From the NCBI GenBank assembly GCA_000320605.2, contig KB445815.1, positions 292,970 to 356,969 on the forward strand: a stretch of 64,000 nucleotides of DNA, in the 5' to 3' direction. Positions 52,379-64,000 of the stretch are shown here, piece by piece (within the stretch, counting starts at the first letter, position 1; each line of letters starts with the position of its first letter). Made by a program: the position numbers and the translations under genes. Below the pieces are notes generated by a model. It made no database searches, was not told where the DNA came from, and saw nothing but the letters and a program-made list of their open reading frames with translations. Source of the stretch: Gelatoporia subvermispora B. Its lineage: Eukaryota; Basidiomycota; Agaricomycetes; Polyporales; Gelatoporiaceae.

Positions 52379-53730
52379 TCAGCGATCCTCATAGTACTCG
52401 TTCTCCCAGGAGGAAAGGTATCGCACTGGAACAGTAGATATATAACTGAGACGCGACGAGGATTAGGTCCTAGACACTTACAGTCTAATCGCAAGACATT
52501 CATACTTTGCAACGGTACGAACAGAGCGAAGATTGATTGCTTATAATATTCCCAAGCTGTTTGAGGGAGAACAAGGGCTTCAATCTTGATCGAGATGTGC
52601 TGAAGCCGGAAATTGTAATACATATGGGTGAGACGCTCACGCAAGAGCGTTAGATAGGATAACTCGGGCATTCCGTCGTTAAAGAACCGCAACTCCAAAC
52701 TTAACTCCTGGAGTTGCGGTGCCTCGATGAATGGCAACAGCGCGATGACAAATTTCGAGTTCGAGACTTTCGCTTTGAGCATCATATGGGTTAGCTTTGG
52801 GAACTGAAGATCGGATGTCAATGTGGGTAGAACTTCGCCCCACTGTTAGTACGCAGCAAGCGAAAGACGTGAACACTTACCTGGGTCGTCCCAACGCTGC
52901 CTGCTTATCGTAATGCTCAGACGCTTCAAAGAATGTTTCGTTGTATCAATAACGCAGGACACAGGTAGCCACTCCAGGTGGAGGTCTCGTATCTCAATGT
53001 CCAGCTCCTGTACCATCTCTTGCGGCTTTGCCAACAAGCAAGGTGCTAAGATCTCGCATGCATTGCCGTCGGTGTCGAGATGTTTGAGCCTAAGCTTGGA
53101 CAATGCATCGCCAAATGTCTTTAAGTCTTCGGGTGAGTCGGCTTGGTCTTGTGGATAGTGGTAGATGGTGAAGGTGAGATCCTCTATTAACGGGAAGGCG
53201 TCGAGATAAGCCGCAAGGGTCAGAAAATCCCATGTATCCGAGATGACTTCGAACGAGAGTTTCTTCACCGGCCCAATCTTGCACACGGACTCTGCAGGTG
53301 GAAGTTCGCGGACTTGACAAAAGAAGGCGAGGTCCTCTACGTTTCCAAGCTTCCGGCATATAGAAGAGAAGAGCTCGCGCTGTGACTGCGTCTTTGGCGC
53401 GGTACGAAGGACTTTGACGCAGCCGCCGAAATGAGGTGAATCTCGCAGGAGACGATCGAACCGCGAGAATTGACTCTCAAAGACGCCGATGCAGCGAAAA
53501 AAGTAAGTCCTCGATGACGGATACCACGCATGGGAGATGAGGCTGGCAGCCCGCAGTGGAGACGAGACGGAGGGGCTGCAAAGGGCAGCATTGATCTTGT
53601 CTATGAGCTCCTGCGGCAATTTCGACGCTATGCTGACCCGGTGATCAGTGTCATTTGCATTTGTTTCGACTTAAATGACAATGTTAGAACGTCAGCTGTG
53701 TACTGATTGCACGAGTAAGAACTCACCCAT
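52379..53730 (-). CDS. F-box-like/LRR protein, tandem copy B
   Basis: Four exons fit: 53730-53727 (ATGG), 53669-52881, 52832-52482 and 52425-52379, 396 codons plus stop. Lengths 4, 789, 351 and 47 nt equal those of copy A. F-box-like start KLPQELIDKINAALCS, PLRAASLISHAWYPSSRT. LRR-like segments include APQLQELSLELRFFNDGM. The last exon reads LRYLSSWENEYYEDR. Intron 3 uses a TACTAAC branch site and an AAG acceptor, skipping a closer CAG. Fully open, so both tandem copies are probably functional. Confidence 0.84.
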
Positions 53731-54108: not shown

Positions 54109-54833
54109 TCAGGCATGTACAGGATACAACGGGTGTACATAAGCGGAAAGATCGAGGAGACTCGCAAGAACCGCAACGTCGTGTTTGCCATCAGCATCGT
54201 ACTGTAAGGTCAGGTGCACGTGCTCTAGGTGCGTAGGACAGACATGGGATATCAATGCCACCGCGACCGTACTGTGCCATGCTTTGGCCCAGACTGTGAA
54301 CGAGCGCAGGCTCGTGAGGGAGGCATAAGAGTCGCCGAAAATTGGCATGGCTTGTAGAACATGGTGTCAGCTTCCGTCTAAGGGGCTTGTGCGAATGCAT
54401 GCATACCTAGAATGTCGTGCTGTCTTGCCCAATGCAAGCGGCAATTGAGGACACTCAGAAAGCTGGAAAATAGTCCAAGGAGCTGGGAGAAGTCATCCCA
54501 GTTCGTGCATACGCCGTCCTGGAAGTGTCGTGTTCGCACATTGCTCTGCGGCTGAAGAGATATGCAGTGCGCAAGGAGACCGCAGGTACGATCATCGACG
54601 TCAACCTTTTCTACATGAAGGGTCGCTAGTGCATCAACCAGTGGCGTCACGACCTTGGAATCAACCTCGAAGGCTGTCTGCCTGGAATTCTTCAGTGCAA
54701 GCTCTTTCAGCGATGGAAATAGAGCCAAGTATCCGGCGAGCGCTGTGATTTCGTCTGGCGTTGACTTAAACGAACCGAGAATGGTCAGACGCGTCACCGG
54801 GCCTATTTGGGCGAATGAGATCGGGGGTGAGGC
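54109..54833 (-). pseudogene. 3' half of an F-box/LRR gene split by the DNA transposon
   Basis: Exons 54824-54407 and 54350-54109, open to the stop, with LRR-like segments (IGPVTRLTILGSF; FPSLKELALKN; HLEHVHLTLQYDADG). There is no F-box and no start; the frame runs straight into the transposon end at 54834. It continues the 5' half at 61235-61609: 375 + 418 + 242 nt make 345 codons in one frame once the element and one copy of the 9-bp duplication are removed. Confidence 0.85.
54825..54833 (+). repeat. Left target-site duplication (GGGTGAGGC)
   Basis: A 9-bp direct repeat, identical to 61235-61243, directly outside the terminal inverted repeat. Confidence 0.85.
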
Positions 54834-54861
54834 CAGGCTCTTGAACCATCCGTCGCTGTAG
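54834..54861 (+). repeat. Left terminal inverted repeat
   Basis: Matches the reverse complement of 61207-61234 over about 28 bp with two mismatches. Begins CAGGCTCTTGAACC. Confidence 0.85.
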
Positions 54862-55345
54862 AGTTGCCTTCCACAAATACTAGAGCGGAGTGCGAATGTG
54901 ATTATGTGAGCGTTGGCACGTGTTAATTACTAGATTTGGACGTGCTTCTTGATATGGGGTGGTGAATGAAGGAAGACAACTCTACAGGACGGCTGGCTTA
55001 TATCCCTTTCCGAATTTCTCCGCGCAGAGATGGAACCGAACGGCAGTGAGGTAGGACGAATCGGCTGCGAGTAGAAACACCAGAAAAAATGAGAGTAAAT
55101 CTCTGAAACCCCAGTCCAGGTTTCAGATTTTTACCTTGCCGAACCAAGTATGTTACGGCGCCAATAGCACCCGAAGTCACGATTCATACAACGTGTGACT
55201 GTGTGCAATAGAATCCGTGTACAAAGCCGAAAGAAGCTCGTCAGACATAGAACATGCCGGAAGATGCTGCGATAGCAATCCTCGTGTTGATACATGAACT
55301 CGACAGCCTTATCTTGACACTCCCCGAGGTGAGGCCCTACTAGCC
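54862..55345. other. Left subterminal region of the transposon
   Basis: About 480 nt upstream of the DUF6589 start, without a gene. It should contain the promoter and any subterminal binding sites; I could not pick out a convincing repeat by eye. Confidence 0.4.
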
Positions 55346-58220
55346 ATGCCCCCCACAATAAACTCCTTGCCGCTCATTCTCAGAGCGATCGAGAATGAAG
55401 GCCTCACCGCCAGATCTTTCTTCCTGATGTTGGCGCAAACACGGACTTCTACCCACAATGTAACTGTAGGAGACCTGCAGAACAGTGGAGAGTTAGCGAC
55501 ATGGCTTATGGACGGGATGGCAAATGATGAATTTACCAAGTTATGTACTATTAAGCTTGTGAATAGAGCTTGTAAAGGGGAGATCCAGTTACTTTCGGAG
55601 AAGGACACAGGCCTTCATTTCAATGCTGCGAAAGTCACGGATGACCAACTCAAAGAATTCGAACTCGACGTTCTCGCACACAAGATGCGCATGTACGCAC
55701 CTGTTACGTGGGAGTTGCTTCAGACTCTCCTCGCGGCGAACACATCTCTTGTGACGCAGCGCCGGGCTCGGAGACGCCGGGCTCGTAAGCAGCGAGCTCG
55801 CCGACAGCCAAGTCCGGGCATCCCTTGGGCTACAGAGAGTATTGAACTCCCAATACCGGAAGACGGAGATGGCGAGCATAGCAATGTGAAGTCCGGGTCT
55901 GGACCATCGATGCCGGATGCCGATGATGCCGATGACACCAGGTACTGGAGGGATATTGGAGACATGCAGGACGGCGATGAAGATAGTGATGTTGAGGATG
56001 ATGATGATGCTGAGGATGGACACAATGTCAGGAATGAGAGCAATGTTGCAGAGGAGAGGAATGACAAGGGCGAAGGTCCTGATGAAGACGAAGACGAAGA
56101 TGTGAATATGATCGAGAAGCGGAGACAAGCCGTCTTGACAATGGTGACATGTTCACCAGTATTATTGATGTGGGAGCTAATATAGGTAGAATATCTAGAA
56201 AACGGTTATATGTTTGAGCATCGTAGCTCAGAGCACGAACCAGAAATGTAACGCACTTCAGGCGATGGTCGGAATTTTCCTGCATGCGTGTTCAACACCT
56301 GAAAACGTCGTTGATCTGCTGTCGCGCTTTGGGCTCTCTGTATCGCGTTCCACGATATACAGCGCTGTAAAAAGCCTGTCAGCAGATGCCACAAAGCAGA
56401 TAAAACAAGCTGGGAGCACCCTTCTCACCGGCCCTGTATACGACAACTTTGAATACGAGTCCAAGCATCTCGTACCCACGCTTGAAAAACCGCACGACAC
56501 CCTTATCCACATGACGTCGGGTATGCTTCTTCGGCTGGATCACGGGGTGAAGCTGGAAGACCTGCGCTGCTGCGAACAGCTATGGTCAAGTTCTTCTCAT
56601 AACCTTGTGAATCATCGAGGCGTCGAGACACCAAGCTGGCGCAAGCTGGCGCAGACTATCGGGGTGCACGATATGGACGACTCAGGCATGAATCGGCGTC
56701 AGCGTTTTCAAGCATGGAAATTCCTTGCGGATCTAGTTCACCACGGTCCAGAATACTTCCGGCAGTTCAAGGCCGACTTGGGCGAACCCGAACCCGTTGA
56801 AAAAATCCCTGTAGTACAATCTAAGCAGGTCCCTCTGCGCGCAATGGACATTAATGAATCTACCACGGCAGGAAATGGGGAAGCACTCACGGATATATTC
56901 AAGCAAGCCAACATCGGAAGCCATGCCGAGGATGGGATGCAGGGGCGTCGAGATATCGGCGATCACGTGATTCTGGTCCATGGCGACTTGGCGACTGGCG
57001 AACGAATCGACGCTCTGCAGCGGTCTCGTTCGGAAGAGAAAACGTCCTGGAGGAAATATCAGCATGTAATCTTCGTGATGGGCTTGTTCCATCTGAAGAT
57101 GGCTTGTGCAGAAGCAGTCTGGAAGCTGTGCATTGTTCCCAAAGCTGCCCGAGCGGACAAGACCTGCCTCATGGCAGAGGTAGCAGCAATACGCCCTAAA
57201 GAAACAAGGAAAGTTATCAGTAAGCCCGGGTTTCGTAGAATGCATGAGATAATCCAGCACGTCGGGATTGTCTCACGATTGGACTGCTGGAGAGTAGAGG
57301 TAAAGCGGAGGTACTCGGTCAATAGCCTTGAGAACTGGGCGAAGACGAAGCCAACTTGGGAGATATTGAAGGACATCGCGAAGACTCTTGTAAAGGACTA
57401 TGTCGCGGGTTCTGACTTGAAGCGCCAGCGATCAGAGCCACGTGAACGCCGTGACGAACAGCGTGAAAATGCCATGGTCCGCCAACAGCTATACATGTAC
57501 TATGAAGAGATCAGTGGTGCAATGAATGCGGGGGACATCGGATGCGTTGAGCAGTGTTTCTTACCTTGGATCCTTGTCTTCAAAGGGTGCGGGAAACACA
57601 AGTACGCGACGCACATGCTGCGTATCTTACATAATCTCTATTTCGTGTATCCTGCGGGACTGAGGTGAGTAATTGATAAACAGGCAATATTTTAAGGACT
57701 TACAATTCTCAGACGGGCAATCCGGATGAACTGGCTATGTAATCCTACTGGCCAGTACAACGCATTCTGTGGGGTGGACTGGTGGCTCGAGCATAACAAT
57801 TTATATACCAAGGTATGAAATACATGCAACTACACTACGACCAAACAAATAACTCAGCCGATACAGCGCATATATGCTGGCCTATACTCCACACGTACAC
57901 AAGAGCGCATTATTAAGGAGTCGCCGCTAATACAGTCGTACAAGCGGGTGCGCATTACCTTCGAGGATATGTTCATGTTACAACAGCGCAGCTACGCACA
58001 TTCTGGACCTGCAATGGAACGAACATTCAGAAGACTCGCAAAATTGATGGAGGAATTAGGGACTCACAAACACGAACCTGGCCGCTCTGCTAAGTACACC
58101 ATGCCGAATCTCATCAACAGCGGCCTGGCGAAGTTAGGGTCAGTGGGTTCTGAACTGGTGGATGTGGATGACGTCGTGGCAGAAGAAGTCGATGGGGAAG
58201 ATGGGGATTTGGATGTATAG
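55346..58220 (+). CDS. DUF6589-family protein, candidate transposase
   Basis: Four exons fit: 55346-56143, 56199-57664, 57713-57812 and 57858-58220, 908 codons plus stop. Order: an N-terminal region with EFELDVLAHKMRMYAPVTWE; an Arg-rich patch (RARRRRARKQRARRQ) that could bind DNA or act as a nuclear signal; an acidic stretch; then the DUF6589 core with AQSTNQKCNALQAMVGIFLH, HVILVHGDLATGERID, HVIFVMGLFHLKMACAEAVW, CGVDWWLEHNN and ERTFRRLAKLMEELG. The conserved Asp and His of these motifs may form a metal-binding active site, but this is only a suggestion. An acidic tail ends the protein. Its 3' end overlaps the convergent helicase gene. Confidence 0.85.
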
Positions 58221-60848
58221 ACGTACCGTTTGCTCCGTTTACTCGTACTGCGGGGGGATTGTATGGAGCACACCAAACGAGCCCTGAGTTCCGTGGCCTG
58301 GGGATAGGTGATGTATAGCGGGTGACGCTCAGGTTTGCGCTGTTTGCATTAAGCACGAGCTGGGTCGTGGAGACTGCCGGAGGCTGTGGAGCTACAGCAT
58401 CAGGAGGGCGCATAGGACAATCTCTTGAGCGGCCTGCAGTGGTTGGATTAGCAATGCACACGTACAATCCAAAATGAACTTACAGCTATGTCCCTGGCGT
58501 CCACACTGGCTGCACGTTGGAGCCTTGCGCTTCCGAGCGCCGCTCACACTTGCTTCAGGCTGATCTTGCACTTGTGGAACGTCCACTTGCATAGGCACTA
58601 CAAGGTGAACCGGAGATGGGGGAGGTAGGGGAGGTGGGAAAACGGAATGCACGATCATCATGAGAGCATCTCCAAGAGTATCCGTCCATTCTCCAGCCCA
58701 TGCGACCTCCTTCTGAAGGTGTTCTTGAGTATTCAGCTTGCCGGCCTGAGCACAGTCGACTATGCGCTCGAGGTTTTCATCTGAGAATATCAAGCTCCCT
58801 CCGAAGTCAAGAAACATTGCACGGCCGTACTTGCTCTCGGCCTCCTGGTCGCGCCAGTTGAGGAGCTTGAGTCGCAGCCGCTGTTCAGCTTCGCTCGCTT
58901 TGTATGGTTTGATGGTCGATTTCTTCATTGCTCTTGCTGGCTTTGCGGTGCTGATTTCGCCGAAGATGTCGAATGCAGCTGGGTCGCAGAGATCACAGCA
59001 CGGGGATGGTGACTTAGGAGCGCAGCGTCGGCAACCGTCAGGTTGTTCATTATCACACTGGAGGTGATCGAATGCTGTTGTGATCAAGCGTGAGAAATGA
59101 TAGATACAAACGCCCAAGATCTGATCACGTACTACACTTGTCGTTTGAATAAAAAAGTGTAATGGGTGTGCGTCGGCACTTGAAGCCTCGCGATTCGGCG
59201 TTGACAACGTCAAGGAGTGCTGGTTGAACGGTTTTGGTTTCTTTCTTCACCGCAGTGATCTTCGTGATCGTGCTCTTCGCATACAAGCACCTCAAGGCCT
59301 CAATGTCGACTTCAATATCATTAGCGTGATTTTGTGTCTCTGAGTGCCGAATTAGCCCATTGTACCAGTAAGAATAAGCAGAAAGACATACCTATATCAG
59401 CATTGAGCGCTGGTTGTGTGGCCGCTGGAATATCTGAGTTAGCGATATTGTCGTCATCACTTGATTCGCTGCTATCGTTTGAGGCAGGCTCTGAGAGAAC
59501 GACAGCTCCAGCGTGAGGAGCCTGCTGATTCTCAAGTCGCCTACGCTTGGACGCTTTCTTGGAGGTGTTCTTACGCTTTCGTTTCTTCGGAGCTGCGGCT
59601 TGAGCTTTTCGATGTGCCCGTTTCTGAATGTCGCTGTCCCAGAGTGCCTTCTCCGCAATTAAGATCGCAAAACCTTGAAATCCGTCGCCTCTCGCTGCAC
59701 GGCCGAAGCGTTGCCAGAGCGTGTTGAGGCTCGATGGTACTTTCCACTGGATAACGATCTTGATGTCAGATAGGTCCAGTCCCTGCAAAAGGAATTAGAA
59801 ATTATGTTGCTCAGATAAACGATTGACTCACCATGCCAAAGGAGTCAGTGACACATAGACCGAAGGTGTCACTGTTCTTCAAGGCCTCAAATTCGTCGTT
59901 CCGGTACTTGTCGGACATTATTGAGTGGAACCACTTGACCTTGTGCCGTAGGTGCTCAGGTAGGCGACTTCGAAGATGCTGAGTGGCCGCTTCAGCTTCC
60001 CGAATGTTATTGAAAAAAACCAGAAACTTGGGCAGTGGGGGGTCGCCGTCCTTGAAGTTGTCTGGAATGAGGAAGTCAAGGTCGCGATACGATTCGGCAG
60101 AATGTCGCATTTTGCGGACCCCAATGGCAATGTCTGGACGGTCATTCGAGCGCAAGATATAGTCGGTTTGGTCGGGTCGCAAGTGCAGAAGATCGGTCAC
60201 GTCAGAGAGGACTGGAGTTGGCAGAGTAGCGGAGGCGACGTAGAACGGAATAGAGTCAGGAATGAGATAGCGAAGAGAGCCGACGTGCTTGTATTGTTCG
60301 CGGAAGGCGCTCCATTCGCTGATGCAGTGTCCTTCGTCGAACACAAAGTAGAGAATCCGGGATGTGAAGCCAGGATTCTTCCAAAGCTTCTCGCAATGAC
60401 CCTTTGAGCGCATAAGCATCTCCGGGTTTATTACGACCACCTGGTGCTTCCCGGCTTCTATATCCTGAATTTCGGGTTCTGGATCAATTACTTGTCAAGA
60501 TAGAAATAAAATAAGGCGCACCGCAAACGTCTCCTCCGTGGCACTCTGCGCGTCCACAGCAACGGCACTGATCCCAGCCGCCCCCAAGATCTCGACATTT
60601 TGCCGTCCGAGAATATTGAGCGGAGTGACCACGAAGATCATTTTGTCTTGCTTGTCCTCAAGAGCCATAAGCAGGGGAATCCAGAAGGAAAGCGTCTTGC
60701 CAGAGCCGGTCGCCGCGATGGCGACAACGTCATTTTGTTTTTCATATAGAGAGCGAGCGACGTTAAGCTGGAAGCGACATGCGCGTTTTCCGAATTTCTG
60801 TTGCGTGAGATCACGAATTCGCTGAATAGACCAAGAAGAAGGAGTCAT
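58114..60848 (-). CDS. RecQ-like superfamily 2 helicase with C-terminal Cys/His cluster
   Basis: Six exons fit: 60848-60522, 60464-59832, 59782-59392, 59339-59136, 59074-58484 and 58433-58114, 821 codons plus stop. Helicase motifs are complete: I ATGSGKT, Ia TPLNILGRQN, II DEGHC (RecQ has DEAHC), III SATLP, V-like GLDLSDIKIVI, VI QRFGRAARGDG. A Lys/Arg-rich patch (KKRKRKN) may be a nuclear signal. A Cys cluster follows (CDNEQPDGCRRCAPK, CCDLC), then near the end a zinc-knuckle-like CSQCGRQGHSCRSRDC. Probably unwinds DNA during transposition or repair of the element. The start is uncertain (60848 or 60887), and the 3' end overlaps the DUF6589 gene by 107 nt. Confidence 0.85.
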
Positions 60849-61206
60849 CTGGCTTCTGGAACTGCCGAGTATGGTTGTCCTCAACATAGGAGGTTCGAAT
60901 GGGTGACTAAGCAGGAGAGATCCGTGACAGGGAGCGCCCGCGTGATGATCCCGACGGCACGCGAGGCCAGAAAATTCAGGAAATTCCAGGCAGAAAATAG
61001 GGTGTAGCGCCCGAGATCTCACTGCTCGCGTACTCAAGATCTCCGGTTCCTCCGAACGGCAAAACCTCGGCACACCTTAAGGACCAGCCGTCCTATAGAC
61101 TTGCCCGTCCTTCACACACCTCCGAATTTGGCTTACTCGTAGAAATCACATGATCCCGGTCACATAATCAGCACGTGTGCACGCCCTCGGATGGAGCAGG
61201 GCTTGT
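60849..61206. other. Right subterminal region of the transposon
   Basis: About 360 nt upstream of the helicase start. The helicase frame stays open upstream to 61073, so a longer N-terminus cannot be excluded. Confidence 0.4.
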
Positions 61207-61234
61207 CTATAGCGACGGCTGGTTCAAGAGCCTG
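61207..61234 (-). repeat. Right terminal inverted repeat
   Basis: Read on the minus strand it begins CAGGCTCTTGAACC and matches the left repeat over about 28 bp with two mismatches. Confidence 0.85.
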
Positions 61235-61243
61235 GGGTGAGGC
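61235..61243 (+). repeat. Right target-site duplication (GGGTGAGGC)
   Basis: Identical to 54825-54833. Confidence 0.85.
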
Positions 61244-61609
61244 CGTATTTTCGTCGTTCCGGAGCAACATCAAGTCGCGCACACGCCCAAGTCTATCGGC
61301 AGTGGATGCCAGGTACTCGATATCCGCAGCATTTGCGTAGAACGCGCAAAGCGTCTTCACGTGGTGTCCAAGATGTGGCGAGCGCTCGAGCAGATTCTTG
61401 AAAGCAGTGTACTGCTTCTGTTGACGGAGCTCTATTCTCCTGAACAGGGGTGCGCGGGATGGCGGGTACCATGCTCTGCAGGTGAGTCCACATGCCTGGA
61501 GTGCTGGACGATCGCTGTGAAGGAAGTTATCTATGATAGCGTTGACGAGTTCTAGAGGTAGTTTGTGAGCAGCACAGGTTTCACTTTTCATTGTATCGTT
61601 ACGATCCAT
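61235..61609 (-). pseudogene. 5' half of the transposon-split F-box/LRR gene
   Basis: The ATG at 61609 (MDRNDTMKSETCAAH) leads into an F-box (KLPLELVNAIIDNFLHSD, LQACGLTCRAWYPPSRAPLF) and the linker LLERSPHLGHHVKTL. The frame enters the transposon end at 61234 and stops inside it at 61160. As it stands it could only make a truncated protein of about 150 residues with the F-box but no repeats, which might act as a dominant-negative Skp1 binder if expressed. Confidence 0.85.
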
Positions 61610-64000
61610 GCCGCTTTCGTAGGATCTGAGTGAAGGGCAGTGATGGGTGTAGTGTTCGGCAGTCGTCTTGATACCTAGAGACATCAATCGCCGAATGGCC
61701 CAGTAGATGTCTTCCCCTGACACAGTGCTCTTTTATGTTTGCTGAATGCCGTGGAGTCACTGCGCGGATCCGAGTGTTTATTTAAAAATCACGTAAGCGT
61801 ACCTGGTGGCAGTGCTTCAATCTCCGCGTGCCACGGCACTGGAAGACGGTTGAGAGGTCAAAGTCGGGATCTCAGGAAAGTGCGGTCTTATAGTCGTTAC
61901 TTGTGTCGTTCCTGGGACTCCCTCTGCGCCATCATTGTTCTGCACGGTATGAGGGATGGTGAATCAGTCGATAAAGACGTACCGCGTTACTAGTACTAGT
62001 GTATCTGACGTATGCGGGCGGTTGGTTGTGTCTACATGAACACGAAGCTAATCTGTGCAGCGAAGATAAGTAAATGTACATAAACATCAGGCCCTGTAAC
62101 ATTGTCATTTGGGTAGTGCATGCTCACGAAGCAGATCTGTGCAGCGAACCAAGATGACATGAATGATCGAAATGCTTTTCTCGACTTGTTCGATAATATT
62201 TGCGCGATAGAGCTCCGAAACTCATCGTGTTCGGCGATTAGAATCTAGAAACTCTCATTGCCTACAAAATTGACGATCACAGCCTGCACTGCTCACGTCA
62301 GCTGTTGTCTTTGCTGAGATGCAACTTTCACGTTCGTGTGTCGAGGACAAAGCACAGGTAAGTGCTTCCACAAAACTGGGCGTATGTGATTCTTTATATG
62401 CTGCTACCGTCCTCGACGCCCGCACATGGATGATGAAGGCAGATTGTACCAGATGCGACAGAAGCATCCCGCACACAGAAAATATCCTGTGCGACAGAAA
62501 AATCCTGCCCACATTGTCAAGCAATCCGACCAGATCCAATGCCCTTGCGACTATTGCTCCACCGACAAACAACCTCATTAGCGGAATTGCAGCCGATCGA
62601 GAGTTCCAATTGTTCGCTCTATTGCGTTGCGCTCGCGTTGATCGATGGCTACACTTGATGGCCGCTCTAGATGAGTCCCGGATCGACGTCGCAATTGGCC
62701 GCGAGCGGCCCTTTGTGCTATCCGTCTCATTCTATGTGACGCTGACACGAAGGGGTCAATGCTGCGAGCTCCGGCGGCATGCTTAATTCCGGAGCGAGGC
62801 ATCGTTGAAGAGTGAAACATTCTCTGTGGGGTTGAGCGGCGTTATGCCGCACGATTATCGTATTCATCTTCATTCATCGATAGTCTGCGTACCATGTGGG
62901 AGCACAAGGGAACACATCTCCAAACTCCACTCTTCTCGAAAACTTGACACGCAGTCGCGCTCAACTTGTCTCGGCGGGTGGACGACACGCCTGTGCCTGC
63001 GCAGTCAGTAATCAAGGGACTGCTTCTGAAGTCTAACATTGTACGAATGTACCTCGATAGCTTGTTTATGCAGATGCGGTGCTAGTATCGGCGCCGAGGT
63101 CTAGAGCGGTCTAGCTATCGCAAATCGCAGACTCCCTGAATGCATGTGGCCTCGCAGGATTTCTCATGTCATTTTGCCTTGGCAAGGACGGAGGATCGCA
63201 CGCACGACGAGCGGGTGCCGACAAGATGCATTGAAGATGGATAGTAGGCACTTGGAGTGCTCCACCGGGCTGCTGCTGTTGGCGGTATCCCGAGGAGAAG
63301 CGGCATCGGTCGGATTGACTCCATTTATCAACAGGGAGGTGACCATAAGCCACGGCGCCCGGGTCGGTAAGGCCCGGCCACGCACATCCTTCAGGCGGAG
63401 ATCGTCGTTCGCAGGTAATTTGCAGCTCGTCAGTAATGCTCTCCGGAACAGCTGTAGTCAGTTTCGACGGATGCGATGCGTCCCGGCCGTGTGCCATTGC
63501 GAGGGAGGTCACGATGAGGCTTGCTTATTCAGCGCTTCAGCACCTGGGGGAAGAGGCAGAAATGGAACCGCATGGAGCTCCTTTTCGACAAGCTTTCGAA
63601 GTCCACTTGCGCCCACTCGTCTTCACTTTGATCGTCCACATTTGGTGGGGGTATAAACGAGATATCGATCTGCGGTGTCGATTTCGGAATTGAATCCCTT
63701 CTCCTCGGGCTTGAGCTTGCCGCGAGTCGCTACCGCGCAACGGGGGCGGCATCAAAAGCCAAACAAGTCAAGTCGCAGCACCATCAGCGGGGACGTCGGC
63801 GGGGCCATTAGGTACCGCACCTTGTGGATCGTCGAGGACGTGGGCAGCAGACTGGAGCGGCTGGACCGAATTACAACGTGGTTTCAGGGCGGAATCGCAA
63901 GGAGGACGGCATCCAGCGAGAGCGCCAGCTCGGCGTCAGCCCTCGCATCGTAGCACCGTAAAGCTAATTCCACCACGCCCTCTCCGCGTTCAGGCGTTTC
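61610..64000. other. Right edge of the window, nothing recognised
   Basis: About 2.4 kb. ORFs of up to 170 codons occur on both strands, but none shows a domain or a convincing exon chain. A gene entering from beyond 64000 on the minus strand cannot be excluded: a short frame around 63690-63540 has an acidic stretch (NVDDQSEDEWAQVDFESL). Confidence 0.3.

Follow-up and report, generated by a model that had tools for sequence, protein, structure and literature searches.

DUF6589 (PF20231) stands in Pfam as a protein family whose function is unknown. A locus of the basidiomycete Gelatoporia subvermispora B raises the question of what such a protein does when it is enclosed, together with a helicase, between inverted repeats. 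The window analysed here, a stretch of 64,000 nucleotides from contig KB445815.1 (assembly GCA_000320605.2, positions 292,970 to 356,969 of the forward strand), holds at positions 54834-61234 a 6401-bp element with two convergent genes, one coding for a DUF6589 protein (+ strand) and the other for a RecQ-type helicase (− strand). We consider this element, with a probability of about 85%, to be an AcademH-type DNA transposon, autonomous and moving by cut-and-paste, in which the DUF6589 protein would act as the RNase H-like DDE transposase and the helicase as an accessory factor.

Borders, genes and a candidate transposase

The preliminary description of this DNA had proposed a complete transposon with inverted repeats and exactly two genes inside, and both statements were borne out. 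The element begins with CAGGCTCTTGAACC and ends with GGTTCAAGAGCCTG, and its left (54834-54863, +) and right (61205-61234, −) terminal inverted repeats are identical at 27 of 30 positions when compared from the CAGG inward. The longest pair in an inverted-repeat listing of the interval 54500-61600 was 54833-54862 with 61206-61235 (30 nt, 93% complementary), and a subterminal inverted repeat of 20 nt (90%) joins 54977-54996 (+) to 61084-61103 (−). Identical copies of the 9-bp target-site duplication GGGTGAGGC stand at 54825-54833 and 61235-61243, a coincidence with a chance of about 4^-9 for an exact 9-mer at two given sites, and the sister copies carry duplications of their own, with letters unlike those of the window copy. 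The genome contains 7 occurrences of the 14-mer CAGGCTCTTGAACC and 0 of the reversed pattern.

The open frames of both genes need splicing, and their exon borders were deduced from GT-AG signals in the sequence; each gene is stop-free after splicing. The DUF6589 gene comprises four exons (55346-56143, 56232-57664, 57713-57812 and, to the stop, 57858-58220), which in the splice model encode 897 amino acids, and its product is a full member of PF20231 (E = 4.9e-108). Exon 2 carries the putative catalytic residues D337 (YDN) and D518 (GD), with a GxxH motif at residues 550-553, and exon 3 the putative catalytic E770 (DWWLEHNN); the first of these residues is located N-terminal to the segment that the PF20231 profile covers. 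The helicase gene comprises five exons on the − strand (60522-60848, 59832-60464, 59392-59782, 59133-59339 and, to the stop, 58392-59074) encoding 746 amino acids. Its first 450 residues match DEAD (3.5e-24) and Helicase_C (2.3e-15), the last exon encodes a cysteine-rich C-terminal part, and exons 1 to 3 bear ATGSGKT, DEGH and QRFGRAARG, which we take to be helicase motifs I, II and VI, respectively. The nearest solved relatives are WRN (E = 1.3e-27), followed by RecQ, RECQ5, RECQ1 and BLM.

The preliminary description had suggested that DUF6589 is a transposase class and that its fold be compared with those of RNase H-like transposases. This comparison supported the suggestion: the predicted core is RNase H-like, its nearest solved structures being Hermes (the best match), the P element transposase and RAG1, and the D-D-E triad is conserved in two families of copies. 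With this predicted fold, the conserved triad, and ends with duplications at 11 of the 13 DUF6589 loci of the genome, DUF6589 is very likely a DDE transposase. At E ≤ 0.1 in Pfam, DUF6589 was the sole match of the window protein, and no transposase profile (MULE, hAT, KDZ or any other) was hit; the DUF6589 alignment, turned into a profile, retrieved nothing meaningful from the PDB sequences (5 sequences at E ≤ 1, the best at 0.43); Foldseek gave no match at E ≤ 0.001 among viral models; NCBIfam gave none for two DUF6589 proteins; and the viral and prokaryotic contigs scanned with the alignment yielded no relative.

The ratio of nonsynonymous to synonymous substitution rates (dN/dS), obtained from Nei-Gojobori counts, is low in both genes. 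Between the window copy and that of contig C13 it reached 0.077 for transposase exon 2 (477 codons) and 0.041 for helicase exon 2 (211 codons), and against the close C6 copy 0.195 (transposase, 476 codons) and 0.280 (helicase), pairs with the C10 or C23 copies being saturated at synonymous sites and giving no ratio.

Three families of elements and their relatives

The PF20231 profile matched 22 places in the genome, grouped into 13 loci, and all 13 lie within elements of this kind, 11 of them (the window and 10 others) with an exact 8-9-bp duplication and two as truncated copies. Helicase homology was present inside the element at 12 of the 13, which supports the earlier proposal of RecQ as the regular partner of DUF6589. 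Counted from 34 helicase matches, 15 RecQ-like loci were obtained, in a search that favours element helicases and may miss host RecQ genes; 12 belong to these elements, and the others lie at C1:216k, C3:834k and C17:6k.

The copies fall into three families. Family 1, with CAGGCTC ends, holds five complete copies (the window copy on C25, C6:597k, C13, C10 and C23, with duplications of 9, 9, 9, 9 and 8 bp) and two truncated ones, namely C9:424k, of which the right end alone is kept, and C1:1022k, which is without helicase and whose left end was seen in one analysis but not found by the motif scan. Family 2, with TAGTCTCG ends, is represented at C1:3569876-3576241, C7:1574903-1580912 and C1:236040-250356, and family 3, with TAGRCTCG ends, at C1:2895185-2906600, C11:738923-745626 (its right terminus eroded) and C6:636k, each with a 9-bp duplication. 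Automatic end-finders missed the copies at C11, C6:636k and C1:248k, whose ends were recognised from those of relatives and thus not blindly. The CAGG...CCTG ends expected by the preliminary description were found in family 1, whereas the two sister families end in TAGNCTCG; likewise, the expected convergent gene order holds in families 1 and 2 but is divergent in family 3. In families 2 and 3 the two ends of an element match each other over about the first 8 bases only (9-11 of 30 positions), so the long terminal inverted repeat seen in the window is characteristic of its family. Since the transposases of the three families share 21-26% identity, the pairing of DUF6589 with RecQ appears to be old.

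Several copies are rearranged. At C6:630754-638276 (family 3) the left 230 bp, along with the duplication copy CACATTGTG, lie in inverted orientation some 0.8 kb beyond the remainder of the element, and the family-3 copy at C1:2895185-2906600 harbours a 4.7-kb element (C1:2898310-2903020) whose 20-bp ends, TAAGGCTCCAACC, match perfectly and which is bordered by the 8-bp duplication CCGGGGAG. In the family-2 copies at C1:3569876-3576241 and C7:1574903-1580912 the inner 5.9 kb runs opposite to the outer ends, and a flip between 62-bp subterminal inverted repeats is the apparent cause. Family-2 ends also stand side by side at C1:235285-250457: a 661-bp element and one end of a different element are followed by a 14.3-kb copy with TCTGATTGG on either flank and by a further end at 250457, an arrangement that looks like the outcome of repeated insertion into or beside earlier copies.

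Family-1 ends also frame elements of about 500 bp devoid of DUF6589 and RecQ. Eight such elements (491-564 bp) have 9-bp duplications, and GGTAAGACC (9 bp) borders the 661-bp element of family 2 left and right; we read these short elements as non-autonomous derivatives. Over the 20 elements tallied, the duplication measures 9 bp in 19 and 8 bp in one, and a 4-bp TTAA duplication was seen in none. This tally leaves aside the truncated C9 and C1:1022k copies, the second end at C17:82162, single ends adjacent to the copies at C9 and C1:248k, and additional short relatives at C12, C15, C17:255k, C22 and C11:275k.

Other mushroom species were compared through protein matches and gene numbers, ends and duplications having been read in G. 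subvermispora B alone. The best 120 of 165 helicase homologues were set against the best 120 of 324 DUF6589 homologues, a shared contig being recognised by equal size in bases, with species names agreeing every time. At least 25 of the 120 listed helicases lie on a DUF6589-bearing contig, on 24 distinct contigs from 21 species, compared with a mean of 0.09 coincidences when sizes were offset by between 1 and 50 bases. Of the 24 contigs, nine measure less than 100 kb, and on long ones co-occurrence alone does not prove nearness; on the 10 with gene numbers, these differ by 1 (seven contigs) or 2 (three contigs), as for the neighbours scf184690.g2/g3 of Trametes cinnabarina and QCA50_014705/014706 of Cerrena zonata.

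Probable assignment to AcademH and competing explanations

Taken together, the frame restored at the empty site (see below), the ends, the duplications, the further copies, the short relatives, the low dN/dS and the predicted fold lead to the reading of a transposon. As in an autonomous DDE transposon, inverted ends and a duplication accompany a protein predicted to have an RNase H-like fold and a D-D-E triad. The preliminary description knew of no named superfamily with this pair, a view that did not hold, as AcademH is described in PMC10045372 and PMC10799480 as Academ with a helicase and 9-10-bp duplications. According to these papers, AcademH makes duplications of 9 or 10 bp and AcademX of 3 or 4 bp, a difference tied to helicase versus nuclease (PMC10045372), AcademH is present in Basidiomycota, Ascomycota and Mucoromycota in low copy numbers, and DEAD and Helicase_C are given for AcademH and KolobokH jointly (PMC10799480); in the portions available of PMC8290104 and PMC12210899, AcademH appears in the reference list alone. 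The elements reported here agree with these descriptions in their RecQ-like helicase with DEAD and Helicase_C, their duplications (9 bp, and 8 bp once), low copy number and Basidiomycota host, and no difference emerged in the features that can be compared by description (duplication, helicase, host, copy number).

Membership in Academ is thus what we infer from anatomy, AcademH having been compared by description, and three points weigh against it: DUF6589 is tied to other transposases by its predicted fold only; DDE transposons have acquired a RecQ helicase on several occasions, KolobokH being another example; and the ends differ between families (CAGGCTC versus TAGNCTCG). They would favour a separate DDE group that resembles AcademH in its helicase and 9-bp duplication by convergence, with a transposase that is not an Academ homologue, an explanation that we find quite unlikely given that host, low copy number, helicase and duplication size all agree with what is said of AcademH. 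The broader proposition, in which the entire DUF6589 family is a class of DDE transposases regularly accompanied by RecQ and makes up a superfamily apart from Academ, marked by YAGNCTC ends and duplications of 9 bp, is also unlikely.

It is highly improbable that the element belongs to Mutator/MULE, hAT, KDZ or KolobokH and gained a helicase. Mutator elements do make duplications of about 9 bp, but none of these profiles, MULE included, was matched by the window protein at E ≤ 0.1. The best structural match is to Hermes, a hAT transposase with a large helical insertion before its last acidic residue, and such an insertion is likewise predicted ahead of the last acidic residue of the RNase H-like core here; hAT duplications, however, usually measure 8 bp, a feature that is not absolute as some hAT lineages make 5, 6 or 7 bp, the hAT profile was not matched, and C/DxxH is reported for hAT versus GxxH in the window transposase. 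The 8-bp duplication of Zisupton, on the KDZ side, was seen in one of the 20 elements. KolobokH is, according to PMC9587614, a fungal DDE transposon that encodes a RecQ helicase, as here, but it does not fit because the Kolobok duplication is the 4-bp TTAA, absent from all 20 elements.

DUF6589 and RecQ could also be passengers of an element moved by a transposase encoded elsewhere, and the short elements that share the ends and lack these genes indicate that mobilisation in trans happens. Yet both genes recur side by side in all three families, whose ends differ and whose transposases are 21-26% identical (the survey there having covered these two genes), both show low dN/dS, and DUF6589 is predicted to fold like a transposase and has a conserved triad, all of which make this explanation hardly credible.

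We therefore retain an AcademH-type transposon. The new point is that DUF6589 is very likely its DDE transposase: no earlier paper was found, and the literature searched under DUF6589 and PF20231 contained no account of DUF6589 as a transposase. The element class itself was already named in 2020, reportedly in the original account by Kojima (Mob DNA 11:15), and what is chiefly gained is that a large Pfam family receives a likely function. Annotators of mushroom genomes could accordingly class DUF6589 genes and their RecQ neighbours as transposon genes and not as host gene families, and the pairs offer a well-populated transposase-helicase set for asking what RecQ does in DDE transposition.

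Proposed mechanism and insertion site

By analogy with its class, the DUF6589 transposase would bind the terminal repeats and excise the element, then join the 3' ends of the element to the two target strands at sites separated by 9 bp, and repair of the gaps would produce the 9-bp duplication. The RecQ helicase, as an accessory, probably serves to unwind or remodel the DNA of the ends, or else to help in resolving and repairing the strand-transfer product.

The element is inserted into an F-box-like gene on the − strand, whose 3' part lies at 54378-54824 and whose 5' part, with a weak F-box-like match (E = 0.006, under Pfam's cut-off), lies at 61244-61723. Joining the flanks with a single copy of the duplication yields one stop-to-stop frame of 314 amino acids across the junction, similar by eye to the neighbouring gene at 52846-53619. 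Mutually similar F-box-like genes are found on both sides of the insertion (52846-53619 and 61160-61723, −), one of them being the interrupted gene. An annotated protein of Pleurotus pulmonarius (1171 amino acids) has an F-box-like domain fused to DUF6589, possibly a gene model that starts in an F-box gene split by an insertion and continues into the element.
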